Origin: Paraflavitalea soli
Lineage (GTDB): Bacteria; Bacteroidota; Bacteroidia; Chitinophagales; Chitinophagaceae
Direction: 5' to 3'
Length of the DNA: 64,000 nucleotides
Assembly: GCF_003555545.1 (NCBI RefSeq)
Contig: NZ_CP032157.1
Coordinates: 1,306,546 to 1,370,545 of the forward strand
The notes under the pieces are model-generated. The model did no database searches. It had not been told where the DNA came from and saw nothing but the letters and a program-made list of their open reading frames with translations. The translations under genes were made by a program, and so were the position numbers. Shown in pieces: positions 32,373-34,319 of the stretch (positions within the stretch are counted from its first letter, which is position 1; every line of letters begins with the position of its first letter).

Positions 32373-32398
32373 TCATCGGCCAAAACCAATTGCTGCTG

Positions 32399-32447
32399 AT
32401 GCCAATGATACTTGCTATCATTGGCATATTTTTTTATAGTAATTTTG
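32399..32447 (+). terminator. Terminator of acyl-CoA dehydrogenase gene overlapping the next promoter
   Basis: GCCAATGATA, 5-base loop, TATCATTGGC, then a TTTTTTT run. The -7 element TAATTTTG for the next gene follows at 32440-32447, and its possible -33 TTG lies in the 3' arm of the hairpin. Confidence 0.85.
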
Positions 32448-32482
32448 CGGTCGTTTTCCGGCAACCAGCAATTATTTCACAC

Positions 32483-33244
32483 ATGGCAGTAAACATTGAG
32501 CAATATAATTCGATCAGGAAAGAATTGGGTAAGGAGGTAACACTTGTTGCTGTATCCAAAACAAAACCGGTAGAAGACATCAAAGCCTTGTATGACCTGG
32601 GGCAGCGGGATTTTGGTGAGAATTATGTGCAGGAACTGGTGGAGAAACAACTATTGCTGCCTAGTGATATCCGCTGGCATTTTATTGGTCACCTGCAATC
32701 CAATAAGGTCAAATACATTGCCCCTTACGTACACCTGATCCATGGTGTAGACAGCTATAAACTCTTATTGGAAATAAACAAACAGGCTGCCAAGAATCAG
32801 CGTGTCATTCATTGCCTGTTACAGGTGCATATAGCCCGGGAAGAAACCAAGTTTGGCTTCAGCCAGGCAGAACTGGCAGAGGCGCTGGAAAGCCTGCATA
32901 ACAGCCAGGTGGCGGGCGAACTGCAGCATGTACAGGTGAGCGGCTTAATGGGTATGGCTTCCTTTACAGAAGATCAACAACATATTCAAAACGAATTTAT
33001 ATACCTGAAGGGCCTGTTTGATGAATACTTTCCTGCTCGCCCTTCCGAACTGCCTGCCTCCAATTCCCAATCTGGTACTGCTGAATCTCCAGGTTCTGTT
33101 CCTGGTACCTCATTCCCCACTTCCAGCCCCTCTCTTCCGATCCTCTCTATGGGTATGAGCAGCGATTACAGCCTGGCTATCAGCTGTGGCAGTAATATGG
33201 TAAGGGTCGGAAGCCTGCTTTTTGGCGCCCGCTCCAAGGCCTGA
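32483..33244 (+). CDS. YggS-family PLP-binding protein (PLPBP)
   Basis: 253 residues from ATG 32483; an upstream in-frame ATG at 32390 lies in the terminator and is rejected. VAVSKTKP at ~22-29 carries the PLP-binding Lys; RWHFIGHLQSNKVK and the C-terminal LSMGMSSDYSLAI...GSNMVRVGSLLFGAR are diagnostic. It maintains PLP homeostasis in the cytosol. Unusually, a ~35-residue Ser/Pro/Gly/Thr-rich insert (33033-33138) separates the helix ending DEYF from the ILSMGMS strand; normal family members have a few residues there. Confidence 0.92.
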   Translation: MAVNIEQYNSIRKELGKEVTLVAVSKTKPVEDIKALYDLGQRDFGENYVQELVEKQLLLPSDIRWHFIGHLQSNKVKYIAPYVHLIHGVDSYKLLLEINKQAAKNQRVIHCLLQVHIAREETKFGFSQAELAEALESLHNSQVAGELQHVQVSGLMGMASFTEDQQHIQNEFIYLKGLFDEYFPARPSELPASNSQSGTAESPGSVPGTSFPTSSPSLPILSMGMSSDYSLAISCGSNMVRVGSLLFGARSKA

Positions 33245-33280: not shown

Positions 33281-33410
33281 GGCAAACAACGAATAAATTA
33301 TGCATCCCGTCGTCTGCACGGTATTTTTACTGTGCAATTAAGGATATAAGATAGTGTTTTTCATAGGTTATTGATTAATGGTTAAGGGCTGTTTCTACAG
33401 CTCTTTTTTT
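33281..33410 (+). ncRNA. Copy 1 of duplicated structured element, candidate small RNA
   Basis: Conserved parts: ACRAATARATTATGCA-like start (to 33304), a 43-base variable part with hairpin GCACGGTA-TTTT-TACTGTGC (33316-33335), a 33-base block (33348-33380) identical to copy 2, and a terminator GGGCTG-TTTCTA-CAGCTC followed by seven T (33386-33410). No long frame runs through it. It is read downstream of yggS and might also act as its terminator region. Confidence 0.5.
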
Positions 33411-33561
33411 GTGTTTATACGTGTAGTCACTTCGTCTTTTCCAGTAGCATTTCCTCAACCGTCCAGGAGATAACCCACTAATCCCACTAATCCATCAAAT
33501 CCACCTCATCCTGGTTCAGACAGACAATCGTACCCTTTAGGTCATTCATCCCCGTTTCCCC

Positions 33562-33692
33562 GACAAACATCGAATAGATTATGCAATGGCCCCTTTGAAG
33601 AGTAGCTTTATACTCGTATTAAAGGCAAAAGATAGTGTTTTTCATAGGTTATTGATTAATGAATACAGGGGCTGTTTCTACAGCCCTTTTTT
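33562..33692 (+). ncRNA. Copy 2 of duplicated structured element, candidate small RNA
   Basis: Same layout as copy 1, 281 bases downstream. The variable part is again exactly 43 bases but has a different sequence with a hairpin at the same place (GAGTA-N6-TACTC, 33600-33615) and an extra outer CCTTT/AAAGG pairing. The 33-base block at 33629-33661 is identical. The terminator GGGGCTG-TTTCTA-CAGCCC-TTTTTT ends inside the last codons of the convergent dioxygenase gene. Bases 33411-33561 between copies show nothing else. Confidence 0.5.
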
Positions 33693-34319
33693 ATTGGGAT
33701 AATTCGGAATGTGCAGGCCCAGAAAGATATCCCTGTTGGCGATCAGCAGTCCATCTTTGGAGCTGAGTTGTACAATGCCGCTACCGCCATATAAAGGCTG
33801 TTTCCTGCGCTCTTCAGCTGTTAATAGAGGATCATCATCAAATAAATACTCATCGATAAAATAAGGTGTTTTATCGGCTTCCTTAAGTACGGGATGGACA
33901 TGCGCCGGTATTCTCTCCTTTGGATAAGCCGCCGGCTTAAGCGTGTAAAATGCATACCTTCCATCTTCACCGGTTCGTATCCATCCACGGATATAGCCAT
34001 GTCTTTTGGCCCAACCTTTTTCATTGCCTTTGGTGGCATATACTCCGGTTTGATCGGTATGATAGATATAGAGTACCACATTGCGTGCAGGCGTCTTGCC
34101 ATCCGCTTCATACACTATTCCGGTGATCACCATTTTGCGACCGGCATCCTTAAAATCGGGCAGGGTATCCATCCAGTTAAGCTGGTTAAAGGGGACCGGG
34201 CATTCAAAAATGGCTTCACAACCTTCGCAGGGACCGCCGATCTGGCCAGTGACCTTATTTTGTGCACAGCCCGTTACTGTCGATAACAACAGGACGGGCG
34301 CCAGCAGTAAGATTTTCAT
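33678..34319 (-). CDS. Intradiol-dioxygenase-like lipoprotein
   Basis: 213 residues. The signal peptide ends with a lipobox (TVTGC). The protocatechuate-3,4-dioxygenase fold is suggested by ITGIVYEADGKTPARNVVLYIYHTDQTGVY, then RGWIRTGEDGRYAFYTLKPAAYP and IPAHVHP. In true enzymes two Tyr and two His bind Fe(III); the His pair HVH is present. It is secreted and anchored, unlike cytosolic catabolic dioxygenases, so its substrate is unclear. Its stop codon lies inside the terminator hairpin of the convergent RNA-like element. Confidence 0.82.
   Translation of the reverse strand: MKILLLAPVLLLSTVTGCAQNKVTGQIGGPCEGCEAIFECPVPFNQLNWMDTLPDFKDAGRKMVITGIVYEADGKTPARNVVLYIYHTDQTGVYATKGNEKGWAKRHGYIRGWIRTGEDGRYAFYTLKPAAYPKERIPAHVHPVLKEADKTPYFIDEYLFDDDPLLTAEERRKQPLYGGSGIVQLSSKDGLLIANRDIFLGLHIPNYPNKKGL

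Follow-up and report, generated by a model that had tools for sequence, protein, structure and literature searches.

The tandem repeat described here lies at positions 33281 to 33692 of the window, by which we mean the whole 64,000-nucleotide stretch of DNA analyzed, taken from the 8.44-Mb genome of Paraflavitalea soli. Both copies of the repeat sit between a gene with an Ala_racemase_N domain (32390-33244), presumably yggS and hereafter called yggS-like, and a convergent dioxygenase-domain gene on the minus strand (33678-34319). A preliminary description of this DNA had reported 33 bases that are identical in the two copies. Direct comparison confirmed this: the block at 33348-33380 matches that at 33629-33661 exactly, and the 14 repeated 20-mers found in a plus-strand scan of the window were confined to it. 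A region of 43 bases in each copy (33305-33347 and 33586-33628), a G-U to G-C change between the terminator stems, and a short frame, GTG TTT TTC ATA GGT TAT TGA, in both copies had also been described, and we found each of them. The repeat is not a product of chance, because each of the 5 genus genomes, that of P. soli included, carries the two copies.

Anatomy of the two predicted genes

Both copies have the layout of a small-RNA gene on the plus strand, which supports the earlier suggestion of duplicated small-RNA-like genes; in each, a rho-independent terminator lies 3' of the seed region. In copy 1, an upstream promoter box, CAAACAACGAATAAATTATG (33283-33302; mean majority identity of 0.91 over 21 aligned rows), contains the -33-like element ATTATG (33297-33302; 0.86). 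A 19-nt promoter spacer (33303-33321; 0.49), which accounts for much of the variable region, is followed by the -7 box TATTTTTA (33322-33329), kept as TAnnTTT(A/G); the Bacteroidota consensus is TAnnTTTG. The predicted small RNA of about 77 nt would extend from 33334 to 33410, with its start placed at the end of the -7 box plus 5. It would include the constant core, or predicted seed, GTGTTTTTCATAGGTTATTGATTAATG (33354-33380), which is identical in 21 of 21 rows, and an intrinsic terminator with a nine-pair stem, a UUUC loop, and a T-run (33384-33410).

The class I alignment, as we call this set of rows, gave the corresponding elements of copy 2: the upstream promoter box CAAACATCGAATAGATTATG (33564-33583), a 19-nt spacer (33584-33602), and the -7 box TAGCTTTA (33603-33610). 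By the same start rule, its predicted small RNA of about 78 nt would cover 33615-33692, with a core identical to that of copy 1 (33635-33661) and an intrinsic terminator (33667-33692). Transcripts of about 100 to 130 nt had been proposed; the predicted length of 77 to 78 nt is shorter. Over the 21 rows, mean majority identity was 0.89 in the -7 box, 0.71 in the leader, 1.00 in the core, and 0.95 in the terminator. The five genus genomes contribute 10 of these rows and 11 other genomes one each, so the rows are not independent. In silico folding left about half of the seed unpaired in the predicted transcripts. The leader before the seed, its start set by the rule, would measure 20 nt in both window copies and 9 to 13 nt in other genera. 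Masking of the seed by the leader was considered and rejected: real leaders paired no more than shuffled ones (9 to 90 of 100 shuffles reached the real value across the 21 rows).

Paralogous classes in the genome and the phylum

The P. soli genome holds related RNAs of two further kinds, class II (GGTTTTTCATAGGATATTGGATT...) and class III (...AGGATAAGGTTTAATGG...). Class II has UUUUUCAUAGG(A/U)UAUUG and the terminator in common with class I; it differs by GGUUUUUCAUAGGAUAUUGGAUU, by a core that in 14 of 28 loci comes immediately after the -7 box, and by a dyad found in 10 of the 28 promoters. What class III has in common with class I is AGGAUAAGG-type sequence and the terminator; it differs by ...AGGAUAAGGUUUAAUGGUUAA...GAUUAG and in keeping UUUCAU in only 3 of 10 own-genome matches. 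We searched with two models, R1 for classes I and II and R2 for class III. Both include members from the P. soli genome, and these members necessarily match. R1, which is based on a MAFFT alignment, has a poor structure of six pairs and acts mainly as a sequence model.

At an E value of ≤1e-4, R1 gave eight matches in the P. soli genome (two class I and six class II), and these eight RNAs carry the seed. The other four genus genomes had 10, 9, 8, and 9, a multicopy state of 8 to 10 class I/II matches in each of the five. Elsewhere in the family, 9 of 13 genomes had R1 matches, compared to 0 of 11 genomes from other families of the order. Over the phylum (E of ≤0.01), matches were found in 24 of 395 genomes: 13 were among the 14 listed for the family and 11 among the 381 from elsewhere. 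The matches outside the family were all weak (E of ≥6e-4), and the CATAGG core was absent from the seven of these 11 loci that were read. R2 returned 10 own-genome matches, which are looser relatives, and matched 6 of 390 genomes overall, all in the family. When all ten were read, two had UUUUCAU, one each had CUUUCAU, UCAUCAU, and a CAU lacking the U-run, and the remaining five had no CAU at that place; class III is therefore a sister class without a constant anti-start-codon piece. A first family search had matched 98 of 294 genomes, a figure in which class I and class II matches are pooled with matches to the terminator alone, so that it is no family count.

Five near-identical class III RNAs (G000:C1:2526094, 8438369, 470208, 7962340, and 6366795; L261 to L265) share a TTTAGTAC...TTGTTATAATA stretch upstream and lack CAT in front of AGGATAAGG. 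They are perhaps a recent expansion of a separate small-RNA subfamily. At the gathering level, Rfam gave no match in the window and only DUF805b RNA among 15 related loci. The DUF805b match (RF02914) lies at L004:2060-2096 on the minus strand, near a class III member. We found no prior account of such a Chitinophagaceae small RNA in the limited literature collection searched.

Similarity to FopS and pairing with start codons

According to the available text of PMC11697453, FopS of Bacteroides thetaiotaomicron has 14 paralogues, a single-stranded 5' seed, and a terminator, is bound by the RRM protein RbpB, represses SusC-type mRNAs at the start codon, and is conserved in Bacteroidaceae. In a relaxed Rfam search, the FopS model (RF04319) gave full-length alignments to both copies (29.1 bits and E of 0.017 for copy 1; 27.7 bits and E of 0.032 for copy 2), and neither reached the gathering score of 56. 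STnc410 (E of 0.01), an implausible enterobacterial family, and SCARNA6 (E of 0.82) also matched at this relaxed level and are taken as chance. Five class II loci had no FopS match at an E of ≤5, and under strict filters RF04319 had no match in the P. soli genome at an E of ≤0.01. The model passed its cutoff in 5 of 395 genomes, from two families that we take to be Bacteroidaceae and a neighbor; the control, Bacteroides ihuae, also matched. Below the cutoff, the model also matched class III loci in two genomes of the family to which the window belongs, as well as loci in two other families; of the latter, L134 looks like FopS and L137 like a gene start.

The FopS R1 seed, GUGUUUUUCAU, is identical over its 11 bases in both copies. 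The local score against the FopS 5' region was reached by 2 of 20,000 shuffles for copy 1, 21 for copy 2, 43 for class II, and 3 and 13 for class III. Downstream of UUUCAU alone, the corresponding numbers were 334, 9426, 4239, and 575 and 712.

In the core, UUUUUCAU is complementary to AUGAAAAA. We computed pairing with 56 susC starts (from at least 56 TIGR04056 matches) and with the starts of 257 genes sampled over 400 kb of the genome. Relative to 40 shuffled seeds, the class I seed had z scores of -1.6 on susC, -1.9 on signal-peptide controls, -2.0 on ATGAAA controls, and -0.7 on all controls. When 54 susC starts with a signal peptide were compared with 125 other signal-peptide genes (the control stretches holding at most three susC genes), no class preferred susC (P = 0.34, 0.94, and 0.53 for classes I, II, and III). 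Measured against all 257 genes, susC starts gave better pairing with class I (P = 0.019, uncorrected) but not with class II (P = 0.63) or class III (P = 0.19). The Bacteroides FopS seed likewise showed no susC preference on the P. soli starts (P = 0.96). The best class I duplex covered the AUG in 48 of 56 susC genes versus 182 of 257 others (Fisher P = 0.029, uncorrected), and strong AUG-covering duplexes numbered 9 of 56 versus 29 of 257 (P = 0.37). This test has little weight in either direction, because a simple signal-peptide rule was used to select the gene starts and an anti-AUG is part of the seed itself.

Within one mismatch, TAWCCTATGAAAA had 46 matches in the P. soli genome, compared to 37 for the reversed control. 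Ten of the 11 perfect matches are small-RNA genes identified in this analysis, and a few of the 30 sites read (L089, L098, and L102) resemble gene starts. The genome also has nine RRM_1 matches above cutoff. One match lies about 0.8 kb past the end of the window (G000:C1:1371300-1371503), and three are clustered within 1.1 kb (G000:C1:784805-785856).

We consider it probable that the repeat comprises two complete tandem small-RNA genes on the plus strand whose constant core pairs with start codons in the manner of FopS. Judged from sequence, homology of the window RNAs to FopS is plausible, not proved. The alternative that deserves the most attention keeps the same small RNAs and thus overlaps with this explanation, differing in ancestry and targets only: pairing with AUGAAAAA requires UUUUUCAU, and the likeness to FopS would be convergent, with a different set of targets. 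Such convergence is possible because most of the FopS similarity lies in GUGUUUUUCAU and it is weak downstream of UUUCAU, above all for copy 2 and class II. The lack of a susC preference over other signal-peptide genes, the class II loci without a FopS match, and the finding of no convincing R1 match outside the family among the loci read are consistent with it. Against it, several features coincide: a GUG precedes UUUUUCAU, the sequence that follows is similar in copy 1 and class III, the layout is the same, and the genome carries multiple copies along with RRM proteins. We regard convergence as unlikely, while giving it appreciable weight.

Promoter and the variable 43 bases

In 21 of 21 class I rows, exactly 19 nt separate the ATTATG-like element from TAnnTTT(A/G). 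The -33-like hexamers were chosen after the alignment had been viewed, which makes this box a fitted one; the ungapped alignment, too, shows the constant spacing. The available text of PMC9723704 places a TAnnTTTG box at -12 to -5 in flavobacteria, and that of PMC7366714 gives a sigma-ABfr consensus of TTTG near -33 and TAnnTTTG at -7. In three plus-strand FopS loci (L129, L130, and L143), our start rule puts +1 on the first G of Bacteroides FopS. TAnnTTT(A/G) occurred within one base of the expected place in 14 of 28 class II loci and was missing there in the other 14; TAnnTT was found in 18 of 28.

Applied to the window, the start rule makes the variable 43 bases mostly spacer and -7 box, with about 14 leader bases transcribed. 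The best reading of this region is thus as mostly untranscribed promoter spacer. The preliminary description had taken the same bases as a targeting part that diverged after duplication; promoter anatomy was found there instead, and the seed-like sequence lies in the constant block. It is likely that the variable and the targeting part had been interchanged. The hairpin described in the variable region was clear in copy 1 (z of -3.1 versus shuffles), where the spacer forms its 5' arm, but weak in copy 2 (z of -1.4), and the copy 1 stem is not kept in relatives: 9 of 9 pairs form in copy 1 and 3 to 6 of 9 in the other 20 rows, with gaps counted as unpaired. As a candidate conserved hairpin, the region was rejected, since no consensus structure exists there across the 21 rows. 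Longer small RNAs of 100 to 130 nt that target through this hairpin would explain why the region varies and why copy 1 folds strongly. They are improbable in view of the invariant spacing, the low spacer identity, and the loss of the stem, and also because the -7 box stands directly before the core in Bacteroides FopS and in half of the class II loci.

Upstream of the class I -33-like element, the window copies (33283-33295 and 33564-33576) and relatives share a conserved CAAAC(A/G)TCGAATA box, which is possibly a dedicated activator site. A search of the P. soli genome for a regulon with the class I promoter gave only the two copies at up to one mismatch, and five others at two or three mismatches versus three control matches. 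Ten of the 28 class II loci (L053, L056, L149, and L150, for example) have a dyad, TACC-N7/8-GGTA, that overlaps the -33 region, compared to 0.12 expected from mononucleotide shuffles; it lies 51 to 52 bp before the core in 10 of 10 and is a candidate operator for a regulator.

Conservation of class I in relatives

In all five genus genomes, the core of copy 1 is flanked by GGATATAAGATAGT upstream and GGTTAAGGGCTG downstream, and that of copy 2 by TTAAAGG-N-AAAA(A)GATAGT upstream and GAATA(C/A)A(A/G)GGGCTG downstream. Since the copies are distinct in every one of them, the duplication is older than their split and both copies were retained. The earlier description had named conservation of the terminator alone as the finding that would speak against it; this was not observed, and a 25-base core is kept in other genera too. 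An exact match to this core occurred in 18 stretches from a collection of 84,980 species, in which the P. soli genome is possibly not counted. Their names are Paraflavitalea, Niastella, Longitalea, Pseudoflavitalea, Pseudobacter, Gynurincola, and Chitinophagaceae bacterium, and we take the family of these genera to be Chitinophagaceae. Two copies were present in 3 of the 18 stretches, all from genus members, and one in the other 15, within the stretch fetched.

A yggS-like gene adjoins the class I RNA in 16 of 17 loci tested; it had no match at the remaining locus (L031), which is near a contig end. The RNA gene is downstream of the yggS-like gene on the same strand in 15 of the 16. Where the gene beyond the RNA was matched, it encodes a sensor kinase or GlnRS. 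In a Pseudobacter metagenome-assembled genome (L021:1480-1620), the class I unit, with both its promoter and its terminator, is encoded on the strand opposite to that of its yggS-like and kinase neighbors, possibly through a small inversion or reinsertion. That the whole unit is reversed is as expected of a self-contained gene.

A promoter, a short conserved stretch, and a terminator would also make up a transcription attenuator or a riboswitch-like leader of a downstream gene. This is very improbable here: what lies downstream of copy 1 is copy 2, the gene after copy 2 is convergent, the downstream genes of relatives differ, and the unit is reversed in L021. Least credible is a gene for a tiny peptide, VFFIGY, whose GTG...TGA frame is unbroken in the two copies as well as in the aligned rows of class I, given that the frame has no synonymous change over 21 rows (nucleotide identity of 1.00) and is missing from paralogues of classes II and III, whose cores agree in part with that of class I, class II having TGG or TGG-like codons for GTG and TGG for TGA.

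Discussion

Sequence comparison establishes the anatomy of the two genes, its conservation, and their paralogues. From these features, we infer how the probable pair of FopS-like small-RNA genes would work. Each copy would be transcribed from its own sigma-A-type Bacteroidota promoter, with the -33-like ATTATG, the unconserved 19-nt spacer, and the -7 box. The transcripts would start near 33334 and 33615 and consist of a leader of about 20 nt, the constant core, and the intrinsic terminator. The core, GUGUUUUUCAUAGGUUAUUGAUUAAUG, is most likely the acting part. Within it, UUUUUCAU would pair with AUGAAAAA at mRNA start codons, a common start of exported proteins, and the rest of the core would lengthen the duplex upstream. 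Translation initiation would be blocked, as for FopS in B. thetaiotaomicron, and an RbpB-type RRM protein may modulate the pairing.

A wider and more tentative proposal, to which we give somewhat less than even credence, is that FopS-like start-codon antisense RNAs are an old layer of regulation in Bacteroidota. Chitinophagaceae would have expanded them to 8 to 10 genes per genome with one anti-AUGAAAAA seed and different promoters, marked by the class I box and the class II dyad, and with a sister class III partly without the anti-start-codon piece. Different signals would then converge on one blocking site, and the tandem pair with its leaders would be an expansion peculiar to the genus. A multicopy relative or look-alike of FopS in Chitinophagaceae would suggest that small RNAs pairing with start codons are not a gut specialty. 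Several classes with different promoters, together with a natural duplication, could serve to separate the roles of seed, leader, and promoter.

We do not file the window RNAs as FopS because they score 27 to 28 bits below the gathering score, lack a SusC preference over other signal-peptide genes, and differ in predicted seed position: FopS starts with the seed, whereas class I has the predicted 20-nt leader before it. After the common UUUUUC, moreover, the window core has AUAGGUUAUUGAUUAAUG and FopS has AUGGUAUUAGAUUUAAGG, and FopS is reported from Bacteroidaceae in the available text of PMC11697453, whereas the window RNAs occur in Chitinophagaceae. The likenesses are the GUGUUUUUCAU seed, a 5' part followed by an intrinsic terminator, a length of about 70 to 80 nt, several paralogues per genome, TAnnTTTG-type promoters, and RRM-domain proteins in the genome. 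GibS of B. thetaiotaomicron, in the available description (PMC7366714), is set apart by a second seed, R2, a PM2 promoter, and conservation within Bacteroides; it resembles the window RNAs in its 5' seed R1, common to GibS and FopS, which pairs with the start-codon region of mRNAs.
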